Part shown: in pieces, positions 25,208-32,466 of the stretch
Layout: each line of letters begins with the position of its first letter
How positions within the stretch are numbered: the first letter of the stretch is position 1
From: Planktothrix paucivesiculata PCC 9631
GTDB taxonomy: Bacteria > Cyanobacteriota > Cyanobacteriia > Cyanobacteriales > Microcoleaceae
Assembly: GCF_900009265.2 (NCBI RefSeq)
Contig: NZ_LR735026.1
Span: forward strand, 109,925-173,924
DNA length: 64,000 nt
Reading direction: 5' to 3'
Position numbers and translations under genes: made by a program
Notes under the pieces: model-generated
What the model was told of the DNA's origin: nothing
The model's database searches: none
What the model saw: only the letters and a program-made list of their open reading frames with translations

Positions 25208-26863
25208 TTATCCCCTAAAAATGGTTAAAACAGTTGTGATTAATCCTCCGACGATTAAACCAGTAATTCCATAGAATAAATAATTGGGTTGAGTCTCGGA
25301 GGTGGGAACGGAAGTTAGGGGCGTTCCTTGATAGAAATGCACTGCAATATCATCGATAAATTCAGGTAATTGCACTGCCACTTTTCCCTGTATTACCTCT
25401 ATTTTTTGGCTCGAAAGTACACCTTGATCGGGTTTAAAAATATCCATTTGATAGAGTCCATCGGTTAAAGATAGATCTTTTAAGAATATTGTTTGTTGGG
25501 GGAAGCTAATATCTTGTGTACCAGCTTCAGAAGATAGATAGGCGATCGCTTCTTCGGGAGAAGATAAGACATAGCGATGGGATGCTGTTTCTGATTCTAA
25601 TTGTCCATTAAACCACAGATTTGGATAGTCTGTTAAGCGGTTCCAAAAGTTTCTTAAAACTAACGTATCTTTTTCTAAAGGGTTCCATCCATAGGGATTA
25701 TAGTTATGATCGTATCCCGGTTTTTGATCTTTAATTCTGGGTTTAATATAAAGATCCATTTGCTGACATTTTGCCATCATAAACTTCCAGAAAAATTTAC
25801 GGGTTCTGGCTCTAAACTTAGGCTCTCGATACCCATATTTAGAGTTATTTTCATCCCAGGATTCTTGAGGAATATAGGGTTTTTTGTATTTAATTCGCCA
25901 ATCTTTAGCTTGTTGAAAAGTATGTTTTTTACCATAAATCAGGAGATCAAAATTAGGATGGTTAAAAATCCAATCCCGTTGAAATAGGTTTAATCCTCCG
26001 GTATCCATACCTAAAATTATTTGTTTTTGGGGTTGCAATTCACCAAAGCGATCGCGGACTGTAGTTGACATTTGATCAATCCAAACCCTGACTTTTGACC
26101 AATCTTCATGGTTTTCGGCAACTTCATGCACTAAATCATAATAAACATTATCTAAATCTGCGGTCACTTCAATTAATTTATTAAACCAGGCTTTTTGAAC
26201 TTCAGCTAATTCCGTTTGGTTATCAGCAACAGAATGATAAAATTTTAAGCGATTATCTTTTAAATGATCGGTAAAAGCATTAATATTGTTATCAGGATTA
26301 AAAAAATGCCCTCCCCAATTCTTTTCATTATCATCCATTTGCCAACCATTCATCATTAATAGATGAATAATGATTCCCTTAGACTCTAAATATTTAACCT
26401 GTTCTCGAAACCGTTTCCAATACGCTTGATTAAATTGAGTTAAATCAAACTGTCGGTTTCCCGGTTGTGTTTCTTGATAGGGAAATAAGACATTATTGAG
26501 AGAACCGCCATTATCTTGAGTAAATTTTTCAATATATTTCCAACTATAGGGTGGGTACGCTCTTAAATGATTCATCCCATGTTCAGCCGCCCAATTTGCC
26601 CACTGTCTATAATTATAGGCATCATCAGAGGCATAGAAAATAAAATCCGATAGTCCTCCAAAAGATAATAAGGGTTTTCCGTGATGGGTAAAATAGACTT
26701 TTTCTGTTCCGACTTTTTCTAGTTTTATTTCTGGGGTTTGGTTTGGGGTTTGAGCGACGGGATTTTGTGCAGCCAATTGCAGAGTTGGACTACACAAAAT
26801 AATTCCTATAGCCAGAAAAAACAATAAAAAAAATCTCAACAAAGAACGATTATTTTTATTCAT
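25208..26863 (-). CDS. Secreted, C-terminally anchored glycoside-hydrolase-like protein
   Basis: A 551-residue protein with a signal peptide (about 1-32), a TIM-barrel region resembling cellulase/apiosidase-like hydrolases (about 45-430), a small beta domain (about 440-510) and one C-terminal membrane helix (about 525-547). Candidate catalytic acids are the Glu in DLVHEVAEN (near 240) and the Glu in IPQESWDEN (near 340). The N-terminal KPLLSFGG and YPPYSWKY segments fit a substrate-binding barrel start. It probably cleaves or binds a surface polysaccharide; the substrate is not clear. It follows the HTTM-DCC cassette on the same strand, 112 bp downstream of it. Confidence 0.65.
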   Translation of the reverse strand: MNKNNRSLLRFFLLFFLAIGIILCSPTLQLAAQNPVAQTPNQTPEIKLEKVGTEKVYFTHHGKPLLSFGGLSDFIFYASDDAYNYRQWANWAAEHGMNHLRAYPPYSWKYIEKFTQDNGGSLNNVLFPYQETQPGNRQFDLTQFNQAYWKRFREQVKYLESKGIIIHLLMMNGWQMDDNEKNWGGHFFNPDNNINAFTDHLKDNRLKFYHSVADNQTELAEVQKAWFNKLIEVTADLDNVYYDLVHEVAENHEDWSKVRVWIDQMSTTVRDRFGELQPQKQIILGMDTGGLNLFQRDWIFNHPNFDLLIYGKKHTFQQAKDWRIKYKKPYIPQESWDENNSKYGYREPKFRARTRKFFWKFMMAKCQQMDLYIKPRIKDQKPGYDHNYNPYGWNPLEKDTLVLRNFWNRLTDYPNLWFNGQLESETASHRYVLSSPEEAIAYLSSEAGTQDISFPQQTIFLKDLSLTDGLYQMDIFKPDQGVLSSQKIEVIQGKVAVQLPEFIDDIAVHFYQGTPLTSVPTSETQPNYLFYGITGLIVGGLITTVLTIFRG

Positions 26864-26975: not shown

Positions 26976-28337
26976 TTATTTTAAAGAACAGCTATCAAAA
27001 CTGCATCGTGTTAACCGTTTTCTGCGGGAAGCCACAAACCTATAAATTTTTGGCCCCAAGATGGCAGCCCCAGGAAAATAAAGTAAGACTAATAACGGCC
27101 ACAGAGGCGGTAAATAGCGAATAATTTCGCGGAAGGCAAAGAAACCTTTTTGCACAGAACCATCAGGAAGAATTAGGTGCATTTCTGCTAAACAAGCATC
27201 TAAAGAAAGGTCGGGATGAGTCTTTTGAATACTCGCCCATTGTTCTTCCACCGGAGTATAACTTAATCGTTGAAACCAGTCAAAATAACACAGAATAGTC
27301 ATGGAACGAATACACAAAGGACAGAGACCATCATAGAGAATTTCGGGTTTAGGTTGACCCGAAGAATGCAGTTGGCGACGAGAGAGGGTTTTGATCATCC
27401 CAGTCCAAGGCATGAACACAGAATATAATGCTATATATGTAAAAAATGGCGCTCGTTGTGCCAAATAAATTCCGGTATGAAATCCAATTCCGGCGGGAAT
27501 ATAAACCCAAACTAAGGAAGGGAAAATCAACACTAAAAAGAAAGTTCCCTCAAAAATAATTGCCATCCAAGCAAAAACCACCCCGATAATGCGGTATTGC
27601 CCTAACCAAACTCCAAGAGCACTTTCCCAAAGTAAACCATCATTAGTCAAGACATATTGTAGGGTATATCCGTTCATCCAATCGGTACTTATGATGCCCG
27701 CACCTTGAGTTAACTTGTGCAGGGCTGAGGATAAGTAAACGATGGCAAACAACCACTGAATTGTTAATAAGGGCCATCGAGCCAATTCACTTTTTTTGTT
27801 TAATAAATTAAAGGGTTTGAATCGCTGTTTTTTGATATTAGTTCGGAGTTTTTGCAACAAATCATCCAAAGACATAACACCGCCAGAAGGGCTTAAAGCT
27901 AAGATAAATAGTGCAATGAGTAGTAAAGCAAATCGATGGTGGTGGTGGTGTGACCCAACAGAAAAAATATAAGCCTCTAAAAAGAAATTTCCCATGGCAA
28001 AAACCATCAAACTGAGATTGGTTTTAAATCCGATCAAAGAAGTGATTCCGCAGATAAAAGTCAAGCAAAAAATTAGAGATAAAAACCAATCGGGAGGAAT
28101 TTGTTGCGCTCCCCAAAGAAAGCTAAACAAGCTTACAATATGCCAAGGATTATAAGCTAAACCTGAAATGTCTCCTAGTTCGAGAATTCTGTGGTAATAA
28201 TCTGTAAATATTATAAATCCCAACTGAAATCCAACAATAATGATCCGGCACAAAGCCAGATCAAATAGGGGCGCAGGTCTAAACCAATAAGCATTCCAAA
28301 CTTTAGAGAGTTGTAATCTGGATTGTTGAATTTTCAT
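26976..28337 (-). CDS. HTTM-DCC fusion membrane protein, copy 1
   Basis: A 453-residue protein. The N-terminal part (about 15-320) is an HTTM domain, the membrane domain related to vitamin K-dependent gamma-carboxylases: several helices, SVGSHHHHHRFALLL near 125, ALSPSGGVMSLDDLL, VYLSSALHKLTQG and IPAGIGFHTGIYLAQ. The C-terminal part (about 330-445) is a DCC (DUF393) thiol-oxidoreductase-like domain with YDGLCPLCIRS, where the two Cys may be redox-active. Reaction and substrate are unknown. It lies downstream of a 169-aa anchored protein; the pair is duplicated at 29115-31040. The two HTTM-DCC genes share long identical DNA stretches. Confidence 0.82.
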   Translation of the reverse strand: MKIQQSRLQLSKVWNAYWFRPAPLFDLALCRIIIVGFQLGFIIFTDYYHRILELGDISGLAYNPWHIVSLFSFLWGAQQIPPDWFLSLIFCLTFICGITSLIGFKTNLSLMVFAMGNFFLEAYIFSVGSHHHHHRFALLLIALFILALSPSGGVMSLDDLLQKLRTNIKKQRFKPFNLLNKKSELARWPLLTIQWLFAIVYLSSALHKLTQGAGIISTDWMNGYTLQYVLTNDGLLWESALGVWLGQYRIIGVVFAWMAIIFEGTFFLVLIFPSLVWVYIPAGIGFHTGIYLAQRAPFFTYIALYSVFMPWTGMIKTLSRRQLHSSGQPKPEILYDGLCPLCIRSMTILCYFDWFQRLSYTPVEEQWASIQKTHPDLSLDACLAEMHLILPDGSVQKGFFAFREIIRYLPPLWPLLVLLYFPGAAILGPKIYRFVASRRKRLTRCSFDSCSLK

Positions 28338-28487
28338 GAATTAATCTTGATTTTTTTAAAGATAAGGTGAGTATTTTTTTTGTTTATAGCAATCAGCAGG
28401 TTAGTCTTTACAACTTTTTTGTGTCTTTGTGGTTAAATTAAAGTTTAACCCTTGTCAAGATCCGAGTGCGAACTGCTATAGTAAGAT

Positions 28488-28997
28488 TTAGAGCATCAGA
28501 TCAACAATTACTGTTTTTTCTACTGGATTTACTCCTTCACGAGTGATCGCTAAGGGATGATTCTCTAAGCGCAGTTTTACTAGCTTTTTTTGATGTTTTT
28601 GTTCATATATTTTTACATATTCTTTAAGAAATGGAAGATCTTTTTCCAGAACTTTAGGGAGTATCTCTTCGATAAAAAGATATCGGGAAACCTGTAGTTC
28701 TTGATCGGTAATGGGAATTTCTGTACCATCTTCTAAAACTCCAAAGAGCAAGTGTTGCCTAACCTTAATTCCCTCATATCGGGCTCTAGCGTACATGGGA
28801 TAATTTAAAAATGGGTAGAAAGCAGGGTCTTTGGGCAGCCGAGGACAAAGACTTTTTAAGGAGAAAGAGGAGCTTTTTTTAGGACAAATTCCGAAAAATG
28901 CCACAGAAAATTGTACAAAAATAACGCTTATAATAAACATCGAAACAGAAACTTTGGTTACAGACCTATATTGTTTTTGAGTCAGGCTTTCTATCAT
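28488..28997 (-). CDS. HTTM-associated anchored protein, copy 1
   Basis: A 169-residue protein with one N-terminal membrane helix (about 15-35) and a soluble domain, probably outside the cytoplasmic membrane. The core has YPFLNYPMYARARYEG and a strand pattern LLFGVLEDGTEIPIT, followed by a helical region and the end LRLENHPLAITREGVN. The PFxxYPMY pattern recurs in proteins encoded beside HTTM genes, as I recall, so it is likely a partner of the HTTM-DCC protein 150 bp downstream. A paralogue lies at 30531-31040. Function unknown. Confidence 0.7.
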   Translation of the reverse strand: MIESLTQKQYRSVTKVSVSMFIISVIFVQFSVAFFGICPKKSSSFSLKSLCPRLPKDPAFYPFLNYPMYARARYEGIKVRQHLLFGVLEDGTEIPITDQELQVSRYLFIEEILPKVLEKDLPFLKEYVKIYEQKHQKKLVKLRLENHPLAITREGVNPVEKTVIVDLML

Positions 28998-29114
28998 AGG
29001 ATTTACTTCAATTTTTGACTAGAGAAAATCCGTTAATCGAATTTAAGTTCAGAGATAAGTAAGGGAATGAACAGCACAACGAGGGGAGTTTTTATTCATA
29101 ATTCTATTAACTAT

Positions 29115-30473
29115 TTATTTAACAGAACAGCTATCAAAACTGCATCGTGTTAACCGTTTTCTGCGGGAAGCCACAAACGTATAAATTTTTGGCCCCAGAA
29201 TCTCAGAACCCGGAAAATACATCAGGGCTAATAACGGCCAGAGAGGGGGTAAATAGAGAATAATTTCACGGAAGGCAAAAAATCCTTTGCGTACATAACC
29301 ATTGGGAAGAATCAAGTGCATTTCTGCTAAACAGGCTTCTAAAGACAGATCAGGATGAGTCTTTTGAATACTCGTCCATTCTTCTTCAACTGAAGTATAA
29401 CTTAGTTTTTGAAGCCAATCAAAATAACACAAGACAGTCATGGAACGAATGCAAATAGGACAGAGACCATCATAGAGAATTTCCGGTTTGGGTTGTTGAG
29501 AAGACTGCTGTTGGCGACGAGAGAAGGTTTTAATCATCTTAGTCCAAGGTATAAACACTGAATAAAGTACCATAAGGTGGAAAAATGGTGCTCGTTGTGC
29601 TAAATAAATTCCGGTATGAAATCCAATTCCGGCGGGAATATAAACCCAAACTAAGGAAGGGAAAATTAATACTAAAAAGAAGGTTGCCTCGAAAATAATT
29701 GCCATCCAAGATAAAATTACCGCGAGGGTGTGATATTGTCCTAACCAAACTCCAAGATCACTTCCCCAGCGTAAGCCATCATTAATTAAGAAATATTGTA
29801 GGGTGTATCCGTTCATCCAATCTGCACTGATTAAACTTCCATTTCCTTGAGATAATTTGTTCATAGTTGCAGATAAATAAATCAGTGCAAATAACCACTG
29901 AGCAGTCAATATCGGCCATCGAGAAAATTCACTTTTTTTGTTTAATAAATTAAAGGGTTTGAATCGCTGTTTTTTGATATTAGTTCGGAGTTTTTGCATA
30001 AGATTATCTAGGGAAAGAACACCTCCAGAGGGACTTAATGCTAAAAGGAATAGTGTAATTAGCAGTAGAGCTTGGGGATGGTGGTATTTTCCAAAGGAGA
30101 AAAGATAAGCTTGTATAAATAGATTCCCAATGGCAAAAAATATCAAACTTAGATTGGTTTTAAATCCGATCAAAGCAGTAATTCCAGAGATAAAAGTCAA
30201 TCCAAAAGTCATGGATAAAAACCAATCCGGAGGAATAGTTTCTGTTCCCCAAGGAAAGGTTAACCATTGCACAATATGTAAGGGTTCGTAATCTAAACCC
30301 GGAATATCTCCTCTTTCTAGCATTTGCCGATGATACTCTTTTACCAGCAAATATCCAATCTGAAATCCAACAATAATAATCCGACACAAGGCTAGATCAA
30401 AAAGGGGTGCGGGTCGGAACCAATAAGCATTCCAAAGTTTAGATAAATTCAATGTCTGTTTTTGAAAGTTCAT
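29115..30473 (-). CDS. HTTM-DCC fusion membrane protein, copy 2
   Basis: Paralogue of the protein at 26976-28337, with the same order: HTTM membrane domain, then a DCC domain with YDGLCPICIRS. I take the ATG at 30473 because it aligns with the start of copy 1 (both continue to an LSKxWNAYWF segment); an in-frame TTG lies at 30485. The poly-His stretch of copy 1 is reduced to KYHHPQ here, leaving two His as the likely conserved pair. Several long stretches are identical to copy 1 at DNA level. It follows its own 169-aa partner gene by 57 bp. Confidence 0.82.
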   Translation of the reverse strand: MNFQKQTLNLSKLWNAYWFRPAPLFDLALCRIIIVGFQIGYLLVKEYHRQMLERGDIPGLDYEPLHIVQWLTFPWGTETIPPDWFLSMTFGLTFISGITALIGFKTNLSLIFFAIGNLFIQAYLFSFGKYHHPQALLLITLFLLALSPSGGVLSLDNLMQKLRTNIKKQRFKPFNLLNKKSEFSRWPILTAQWLFALIYLSATMNKLSQGNGSLISADWMNGYTLQYFLINDGLRWGSDLGVWLGQYHTLAVILSWMAIIFEATFFLVLIFPSLVWVYIPAGIGFHTGIYLAQRAPFFHLMVLYSVFIPWTKMIKTFSRRQQQSSQQPKPEILYDGLCPICIRSMTVLCYFDWLQKLSYTSVEEEWTSIQKTHPDLSLEACLAEMHLILPNGYVRKGFFAFREIILYLPPLWPLLALMYFPGSEILGPKIYTFVASRRKRLTRCSFDSCSVK

Positions 30474-30530
30474 AGGTTGATTCAACTTTTGTAAATTTTG
30501 TAAAGAATCAGACGGGTGAAAAATGGTAGT

Positions 30531-31040
30531 TTATAGCTCCAGGTCAACCGTTACGATTTTGTCTCCTGGATTAATGCTTTTACGGGTAATGATTAAGGGA
30601 TGGTTTTCTAACCGCAACTTTACTAGATTCTTTTGAGACTTTTGCTCATAAATTTTTACATAAGATTGAATAATCTCAGGATTTTTTTTCTCGATTTCAG
30701 GTAATATATTTCTCAAGAATTTATATCGAGATGTTTGTAAGTCTTCGTTGGTAATCGCAACTTCTGTTCCGTCCTCTAAAACGCCAAATAGAAAGTATTG
30801 ATTAACATTAGTTCCCTCATATCTAGCTCCAGCATACATGGGATAATCTAAAAAAGGATATAAAGCTGGATCATCGGGAATACTTGGGCAAATAAGTTTT
30901 AATAGGAAAAAATCAGAGTCCAAATAGGTACAAGTTCTAATGTTTCCAGCTAAAAATTGTAAATAAATTACCCCTAAAATGGTCAAAGACACAGAAAATT
31001 TAGCCAGAAGTTTGTAATTATTTTTGTTGAGGGTATCCAT
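30531..31040 (-). CDS. HTTM-associated anchored protein, copy 2
   Basis: Paralogue of 28488-28997: same length (169 aa), N-terminal membrane helix (about 14-35), then YPFLDYPMYAGARYEG, LLFGVLEDGTEVAIT and the end LRLENHPLIITRKSIN. The two are more diverged from each other than the HTTM-DCC copies. It is the first gene of the duplicated pair and lies 58 bp downstream of the NAD(P)H dehydrogenase-like gene on the same strand, so all five genes may form one transcript. Confidence 0.7.
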   Translation of the reverse strand: MDTLNKNNYKLLAKFSVSLTILGVIYLQFLAGNIRTCTYLDSDFFLLKLICPSIPDDPALYPFLDYPMYAGARYEGTNVNQYFLFGVLEDGTEVAITNEDLQTSRYKFLRNILPEIEKKNPEIIQSYVKIYEQKSQKNLVKLRLENHPLIITRKSINPGDKIVTVDLEL

Positions 31041-31098
31041 AATTTGATCAACTCTAATTGTTTTTCAGAGACTGAGTTTAGAAATGGCTGAGTCGGAG

Positions 31099-32400
31099 TT
31101 ACAGTGGTTTATGGAAGTTGAATTTAGACGATTTCCAGGGTATTTTAAAAAGGTTTTTAATTCCTTGTTTCCATCGATATTGAGTTACTTGTAAACGATG
31201 ATTTACCGTTGGCATTCTCAGCAGAATATAAACCCAGGTTCTCACCCAACAGGCAATTAAACCACTTAAATTAATCCCAAAACTAGATACAATTGCCTCT
31301 CTAACCCCTAGGGTTAGCATTTCTCCGAGGTGAACATAATGAAATGCTTTTAAAGATTTTCCCATGATTAAAGCCTTGAGATTATCAGCCGTAGCAGCAC
31401 CTTGTTGAAAGGCAGCTTGAGCCGTTGCGGGAACTTGTTGCCCCTGCAAATTGCGAATATCGGCTAAATCTCCTAGGGCAAAAACTTCAGGATAATCAAT
31501 AAATTGTAAAGTGGGTGTTGTTAAAACTTGACCCCTTTTATTATGCTGACAATCCAGGTGATACAGCCATTCTCTGGGTTGGGTTCCGACGGTTTCAATG
31601 ACTAAATCAATCGGGATTTTGTGTTGCTGTTCGGGTTCAATTAAGGTGATATGATGGTGATCAACCGATTGAATCTGAGTCTGAAATTTAAGTTGAACTC
31701 CCCTAGATGCTAAGGACTGATAAGCAACTTTTCGGCTAAAATTTGAAAAGCCTTTCAGAATTTGTTGACCTCGAACAATTAAATAAATTTGCCCTCGCTT
31801 TTGTAAACGGTCGGCTAATTTTCCTGCTAGTTCTACGCCATTGGGCCCTCCTCCAATTACAGCAATGGAAATTTTGGGTTTTGGAGATAATTCTAATCCA
31901 GATAATCGCTGTTTGAGTCGTTCAGCATCCGCTAAAGTTCGGAAGGGATAGGTTTCTACTTCCTGCTCAGAAACAACACTAGAAAAGGTTTTTCGACCTA
32001 CCGATAAGACTAAATAATCATAGGTTAAACACTCTTGGTTTTTTAGATGAATTTCCCGTTGTTTTAAGTTAATATTCTCAACGGTTCCTTGGCAAAATTT
32101 AACCTTAACTTTAGCCAGCAATTTCTGGAAACTAGGGGCAATTTCCCAGTCTCTAAATTCATCCGTAATTAATTCATAAAGAAAAGGTGTAAATAAAAAA
32201 CGCTCCTCTTTATCAATTAAGGTGATGTTAGGAATTAGGGATTTATGCCAAGATAAACGCGCTAAGGACAACGCGGTATAAAGTCCAGCAAAACCTCCCC
32301 CTAGAATACAGATTTTAGTGGGTGTTTTAGGTTGTGAGATGGATATTGGAAAACCTTTGTTTTCGGGATCATTAAGATTGGCGCGAGACTGATAGCTCAT
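31099..32400 (-). CDS. Type II NAD(P)H dehydrogenase-like flavoprotein
   Basis: A single-polypeptide FAD/NAD(P)H oxidoreductase. The FAD-binding ILGGGFAGLYTALSLA and the NAD(P)H-binding VIGGGPNGVELAGKLA are intact, as is the second FAD motif VFALGDLADI. The C-terminal 70 residues carry an amphipathic segment for membrane attachment, as in NDH-2, which passes electrons to quinones. Cyanobacteria have NdbA, NdbB and NdbC types; I cannot tell which this is, though an NdbB-like (demethylphylloquinone-reducing) role would fit its neighbours. I use the ATG at 32400; an in-frame TTG at 32466 would add 22 residues. It heads the HTTM-DCC cassette strand. Confidence 0.78.
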   Translation of the reverse strand: MSYQSRANLNDPENKGFPISISQPKTPTKICILGGGFAGLYTALSLARLSWHKSLIPNITLIDKEERFLFTPFLYELITDEFRDWEIAPSFQKLLAKVKVKFCQGTVENINLKQREIHLKNQECLTYDYLVLSVGRKTFSSVVSEQEVETYPFRTLADAERLKQRLSGLELSPKPKISIAVIGGGPNGVELAGKLADRLQKRGQIYLIVRGQQILKGFSNFSRKVAYQSLASRGVQLKFQTQIQSVDHHHITLIEPEQQHKIPIDLVIETVGTQPREWLYHLDCQHNKRGQVLTTPTLQFIDYPEVFALGDLADIRNLQGQQVPATAQAAFQQGAATADNLKALIMGKSLKAFHYVHLGEMLTLGVREAIVSSFGINLSGLIACWVRTWVYILLRMPTVNHRLQVTQYRWKQGIKNLFKIPWKSSKFNFHKPL

Positions 32401-32466
32401 TTTGATATCAGCAATGGAGAAACTGCTGAATCTATCCCAAATCTGGGATAGGATTAATCTTCCCAA

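Follow-up and report, generated by a model that had tools for sequence, protein, structure and literature searches.

To our knowledge, HTTM proteins are widespread in bacteria and their chemistry is mostly unknown. A human relative, the gamma-glutamyl carboxylase GGCX, consumes reduced vitamin K, and the human vitamin K reductase is VKOR. Within GGCX, K218 is the catalytic base and W223 lines the vitamin K pocket, as described in part of PMC12589487. In the synthesis of phylloquinone, prenyl naphthoquinones are reduced by the NDH-2 family member NdbB (PMC9414918) and by NDC1 (PMC8133638). HTTM proteins also occur in peptide-modifying clusters: linaridin clusters carry the HTTM gene crdG, whose mechanism is given as unclear, and the portion of the paper devoted to them names neither NDH-2 nor a partner (PMC9927463). 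In cassettes encoding SdpB (TIGR04033) or DUF5819 with HTTM and DCC, a small anchored protein is encoded directly upstream of the HTTM protein, often together with DCC. Here we describe five genes within a 64,000-nucleotide stretch (the window) of the 6.1 Mb genome of Planktothrix paucivesiculata PCC 9631, in which an NDH-2-like gene is followed by two copies of a cassette encoding an anchored protein (the partner) and an HTTM-DCC fusion. We tentatively interpret this cluster as encoding a two-chain membrane enzyme that belongs to the GGCX/SdpB (HTTM) superfamily, is driven by a quinol and is supplied with its own quinone reductase, a reading we favour while placing it slightly short of an even chance. 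No paper on an NDH-2-HTTM-DCC or DUF5819-HTTM-DCC set was found in a literature search limited to licensed PMC papers; the term DUF393 occurs once in PMC8612252.

All five open reading frames lie on the minus strand with intergenic gaps of 45-150 bp, and the arrangement given in the earlier note held at every coordinate. The first gene (31099..32466) encodes an NDH-2-like FAD/NAD(P)H:quinone oxidoreductase, assigned by Pyr_redox_2 (Pfam, 1.7e-40), by a phylogenetic tree and by solved structures, the best of which are of NDH-2 type (E 8e-27); its start is likely the ATG at 32400, giving 433 aa, and the relative in locus L042 is equally long. Partner copy 1 (30531..31040, 169 aa) has one N-terminal membrane helix and an alpha/beta domain that carries the motif [WY]PFxxYPM[YF], and is followed by HTTM-DCC copy 1 (29115..30485; DCC1-like, Pfam, 1.2e-15; also supported by alignments), for which homologues indicate that the listed TTG start is likely to be replaced by the ATG at 30473 (452 aa). 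Partner copy 2 (28488..28997, 169 aa) precedes HTTM-DCC copy 2 (26976..28337; DCC1-like, Pfam, 5e-18), whose model and profile point to a GGCX-like membrane half followed by DCC. Amino acid identity between the copies is 76% for HTTM-DCC and 55% for the partner, and both copies of the cassette look selected because the ratio of nonsynonymous to synonymous substitution rates (dN/dS) between them is 0.26 and 0.32, respectively.

The HTTM label did not come from a direct family match. PF05090 (HTTM) matched neither window copy in Pfam even at E 10, and a six-frame search of the host genome with it returned nothing at E 0.001; SdpB (TIGR04033, NCBIfam) had no match to the window copies at E 1. The label is established because relatives match PF05090 (4 of the 11 in the same HTTM alignment, best 1.2e-9), because the profile of these 11 sequences aligns with the membrane part of human GGCX (E 2.2e-5, one comparison), and because the HTTM-DCC model matches GGCX. 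The 16 best matches of that model among 350,542 PDB chains were all human GGCX, 13 of them at E<=0.001 with probability 1.00, and the GGCX query sequence was confirmed against PDB chains. Three HTTM relatives also match TIGR04033, below its cut-off, and when PDB profiles were searched with the HTTM alignment, one weak match resulted, to the tail of CcdA. The profile alignment pairs K208-DWMNGYT with GGCX K218-ADWVEGYS, and the lysine is present in 55 of 55 HTTM sequences compared, including both window copies; Y201 is kept in 55, H287 in 53 and W220 in 49. Copy 2 carries K208, W220 and H287, with H132 near the site of GGCX H160. The residues at the H160/N159 site are HH in the window's type and INH in a Bacteroidota homologue, with GGCX itself left gapped there by the aligner; His is found at the H160 site in the window's type, the G101 type, a Bdellovibrio-like pair and one Bacteroidota homologue. 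Sequence and model identify HTTM-DCC as the GGCX-like catalytic half, in which K208 is the equivalent of K218. Its likeness to human GGCX extends over the membrane-part fold and the counterparts of K218, Y211, W223 and H287, and the cluster would likewise supply a further helix and an extracytoplasmic half. GGCX is a single chain, whereas the cluster encodes two, places DCC behind the membrane half and includes NDH-2.

Both fusions also belong to PF04134 (DCC1-like) and carry a CxxC, CPIC in copy 1 and CPLC in copy 2. The motif is kept in 29 of 29 NDH-2-linked DCC domains, a reading that leaves aside L170, where the HTTM gene is cut by the end of the locus, and it is lost in L045, L046, G555:C35 and G602. 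A rule that CxxC is kept only together with NDH-2 was considered and fails, as L204, L205, L207 and G588 have the motif and lack an intact adjacent NDH-2. The DCC side is probably cytosolic and K208 probably outside. The kinship of HTTM with gamma-glutamyl carboxylases and the CxxC of DCC, both raised in the earlier note, were borne out. Of the outcomes that the note gave as refuting its idea, neither was observed: the linkage recurs in other genomes, and the protein keeps the catalytic lysine and matches GGCX in its model.

We assessed how widely NDH-2 and HTTM are linked in 388 genomes of the order, counting matches to the window NDH-2 at E<=1e-113. This yielded 59 NDH-2 places in 56 genomes. 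At 38 of them a same-strand HTTM gene lies downstream (30 of 51 fetched places, G555, G623, and six loci belonging to the window or G101 type); one more linkage, in G561, fell below the threshold. In 26 of the 30 linked loci, the distance between NDH-2 and HTTM, measured between stop-to-stop frames, was under 300 bp in absolute value. The window NDH-2 is a paralogue, 46% identical, of a resident copy (G000:C180) that was present in 15 of 15 genomes checked and that is probably NdbB. In a tree of 78 NDH-2 rows, from which three distant rows (G510x, G255x, G157x) were excluded, the 17 rows of the resident paralogue form one clade (SH-aLRT 100) and the cluster copy lies outside it; the scanned flanks of those 17 rows (1.5 kb for 15 of them) held no HTTM. 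Linked and unlinked states required 5 changes on the tree as against 26.4 in shuffles, a difference to which near-copies contribute. The cluster copy differs from the resident NDH-2, probably of NdbB/NDC1 type, in position on the tree and in its link to HTTM. Judged on gene order, the linkage of NDH-2 and HTTM-DCC, previously noted for this genome and here seen far beyond it, is not due to chance; the idea that the genes are chance neighbours has a negligible probability, as nothing was found in its favour and it is refuted by a linkage that recurs across families of the order and involves divergent types of HTTM. Separately, a weak HTTM match (2.6e-6, in a 150-codon frame, L105:2898-3347) lies beside the outgroup NDH-2 of G588 (C65), which was labelled unlinked.

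The partner belongs to no Pfam family above cut-off and to no NCBIfam family, and DUF5819 did not match it in Pfam at E 10. A profile search detected it in 11 of the 388 genomes of the order (one of its loci, in G602, near a contig end); with a single sequence as query it was found in 3 of 386 from the phylum. A plasmid search with the Rhodobacteraceae partner gave no match. A scan of contigs with HTTM alone yielded nine loci, and in all nine the gene directly upstream encodes a partner homologue. Their hosts are cyanobacteria, alphaproteobacteria, Bdellovibrio-like bacteria and a genome whose title reads Ca. Gracilibacteria; three of the alphaproteobacterial loci (L035, L047, L048) encode DCC separately, in a gene that follows closely. 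For the locus L045/G623, the contig title, Ca. Gracilibacteria SU_1_2, and the placement of the genome in the window's cyanobacterial order seem to disagree. Fusions were also found: G101 and G668 encode a partner-like domain behind HTTM-DCC in one chain, with NDH-2 directly upstream in both, and the motif Q-S-W-S-I-F-A-P or a close form of it occurs in a domain behind HTTM-DCC in 27 of 29 NDH-2-linked proteins, the others being G668, which has the partner-like domain instead, and L173. The profile of this fused C-terminal domain matched DUF5819 at E 1.8e-8 and the partner at P 0.0038 (none of 40 column shuffles as high, HH probability only 8.7%), and partner and DUF5819 compared directly gave P 0.037. 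The partner is likely to form the other half of the enzyme, contributing one helix and an extracytoplasmic domain, rather than to be its substrate, because it is found with HTTM across phyla, is fused to it elsewhere and resembles the fused DUF5819-like domain. The co-occurrence check proposed for the 169-aa family came out in favour of a pair with HTTM, and the suggestion that the partner was the target was set aside in view of its constant recurrence with HTTM and the two fusions. Two further proteins were observed among these loci. Just upstream of NDH-2 in L185 (L185:5331-6950) is another HTTM-like gene, of 539 aa, which has neither DCC nor a Pfam HTTM match and whose C-terminal YPITSLQMFSG looks intermediate between the two partner motifs, and downstream of the G101 fusion is a 127-aa secreted-looking protein with CDCPFC (L037:6328-6711), a possible substrate with no Pfam match at E 1.

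In many other loci the linked genes form part of a longer operon, ordered acyl-CoA-dehydrogenase-like (ACAD), acyl carrier protein (ACP), MBOAT, a 320-aa protein without a Pfam match, NDH-2, HTTM-DCC and often a second MBOAT. It was seen in L166, L155, L156, L158, L160, L175 and others, from several cyanobacterial families. Of 53 loci counted by blast, with flanks of about 4 kb that undercount, 31 had a classical HTTM-DCC; on the same strand, MBOAT lay upstream in 27 and ACAD was present in 22 of these 31.

If the tentative reading of a two-chain, quinol-driven enzyme is right, NDH-2 would pass electrons from NAD(P)H to a naphthoquinone (phylloquinone) in the membrane, and the quinol, deprotonated by K208, would form a strong base with O2, as in GGCX. 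This base would deprotonate a substrate on the outer side of the membrane, and carboxylation or some other carbanion reaction would follow, while the DCC thiols on the cytosolic side could help to return the oxidised quinone in a VKOR-like manner or keep the enzyme reduced. By analogy with the SdpB/DUF5819 cassettes, a secreted peptide would be a candidate substrate; the MBOAT and glycosyltransferase neighbours of relatives would instead suggest an acyl-lipid or a glycan of the cell surface. The vitamin-K-cycle-like module proposed in the earlier note is partly supported: the GGCX-like HTTM protein, the NDH-2 linkage and the CxxC strengthen the idea, and the partner as target finds no support. 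A bolder and unlikely extension is that of a complete gene-clustered vitamin-K-type cycle outside animals, in which NDH-2 would regenerate phylloquinol, the split GGCX-like enzyme would consume this quinol together with O2 and generate a carbanion on a substrate outside the cytoplasm (maybe an acylated surface glycan or lipid instead of a protein), and the DCC thiols would close the cycle.

Several results weigh against the reading of a quinol-driven enzyme. The HTTM-DCC model is weak to moderate (predicted local distance difference test, pLDDT, 72.5) and the other four models reach 40-53. The site of H160, which coordinates Glu in GGCX, is occupied by Asp in HTTM proteins of the classical NDH-2-linked type, and the sidedness of DCC was derived from charges and from a weak eighth transmembrane helix (TM8) that a hydropathy scan leaves unscored. 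Identity of the partner with the GGCX luminal domain, tried with human GGCX alone and then with three Bacteroidota homologues, was rejected: human GGCX alone showed no similarity, the profile tests were not significant (P 0.12 local, 0.064 global), and for the fused C-terminal domain 9 of 40 shuffles scored as high. The partner model had no PDB match at E<=0.001 (best 0.085), and GGCX was not among the 50 matches listed; the order of helix, aromatic-Met motif, beta hairpin, helix and strand common to the partner and the luminal domain is offered as an idea only. The linkage itself has exceptions. NDH-2 occurred with no HTTM in the fetched flanks at 21 of 59 places (L194 among them at a contig end), in the other four of the 30 linked loci HTTM is either 0.8-2.3 kb distant or starts as a truncated piece, and in G555 HTTM lies 2.7 kb from NDH-2, after such a piece. 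Among nine assessable partner and HTTM loci in the order, five have an intact NDH-2 upstream (window, G262, G563, G159, G636) and one, in G588, has only a degenerate piece; those of G623, G561 and G555 (YPM-type) have no adjacent NDH-2, and each of these three genomes has an additional NDH-2 close to a different HTTM-DCC gene, one of the classical type. In 50 further genomes, hand-picked, none among the 56 NDH-2-positive ones and not all necessarily within the 388-genome sample, 3 of 4 HTTM-DCC loci had no NDH-2 within 1.5 kb. Across the phylum, PF05090 was found at 15 places in 10 of 386 genomes, with NDH-2 in the fetched flanks in G101 only. Finally, MBOAT was upstream in 14 and ACAD present in 12 of the 22 blast-counted loci with no HTTM detected by blast, a group that includes L153, whose G101-type HTTM the count missed.

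This last pattern bears on the possibility that NDH-2 belongs to an acyl-dehydrogenase/ACP/MBOAT pathway and that HTTM-DCC catalyses a different step in that pathway, which would make a surface lipid or glycan, the two having no quinone in common. Upstream MBOAT genes in loci both with and without HTTM speak for it, and NDH-2 may serve the acyl pathway; we consider this reading rather unlikely, since in the window, G262, L042, L043, L044, G101 and L153 NDH-2 and HTTM-DCC occur with no ACAD, ACP, MBOAT or 320-aa gene detected in the stretches searched. A different possibility is an SdpAB-like pair, in which HTTM and the anchored partner would serve the maturation or export of a secreted peptide, quinone chemistry would play no part and NDH-2 would be a passenger. 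On Gram-positive plasmids HTTM lies directly downstream of DUF5819 in 8 of 8 DUF5819 matches, a small secreted precursor-like protein is encoded upstream in 4 of these 8 loci (Virgibacillus, with two, Macrococcus and two Streptomyces), and the HTTM proteins of the two loci scanned match NCBIfam SdpB, below cut-off (9.7e-22 and 7.1e-14). The sdpABC paralogue yitPOM, moreover, specifies a secreted toxin in B. subtilis, as stated in part of PMC6818787. The window proteins, in contrast to these cassettes, match neither family and come with NDH-2, and no peptide precursor was seen, the window cluster having no precursor-like gene of at least 60 aa; the K218 counterpart is invariably kept, and the NDH-2 linkage is too frequent for a passenger. 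An SdpAB-like role is doubtful. The remaining alternative, that HTTM-DCC no longer performs carboxylase-type chemistry and serves as a thiol-redox or transport scaffold, would fit the Asp at the H160 site in the classical linked type and the CxxC of all linked DCC domains. It is improbable given that K208, Y201 and H287 are kept in 53-55 of 55 sequences and that L045, L046 and G555:C35 have lost CxxC yet keep the HTTM lysine.

Within the genus, the cassette seems to have been lost in pieces or as a unit, to judge from the genomes compared. G262 (same genus) has one set in the corresponding position, and its HTTM-DCC is interrupted by an in-frame stop; the metagenome-assembled genome (MAG) Oscillatoriales CG2_30_40_61 (G563) has a single set whose HTTM-DCC lacks such a stop; in G255 a DCC remnant alone is left between the same neighbour genes; and of the cassette G573 has the partner only. 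An Apiosidase-like/glycosidase gene downstream (25208-26863) was considered as part of the cluster and rejected, as it is not at this place in G262; the Pfam match of its product lies below the cut-off, and the gene is present in G563 (L042). Elsewhere, the Gram-positive plasmid cassettes L036, L054, L055 and L058, which encode a small, secreted, Gly/Ala-rich precursor-like protein, DUF5819, HTTM (SdpB-like in the two scanned) and DCC, look like unassigned peptide loci.

The pairing of these genes suggests that cyanobacteria may have a vitamin-K-like chemistry of their own. A fixed pairing with a reductase related to a phylloquinone enzyme would give HTTM proteins a direct, testable cofactor hypothesis, and the vitamin K cycle could then have originated in a membrane pathway of microbes.

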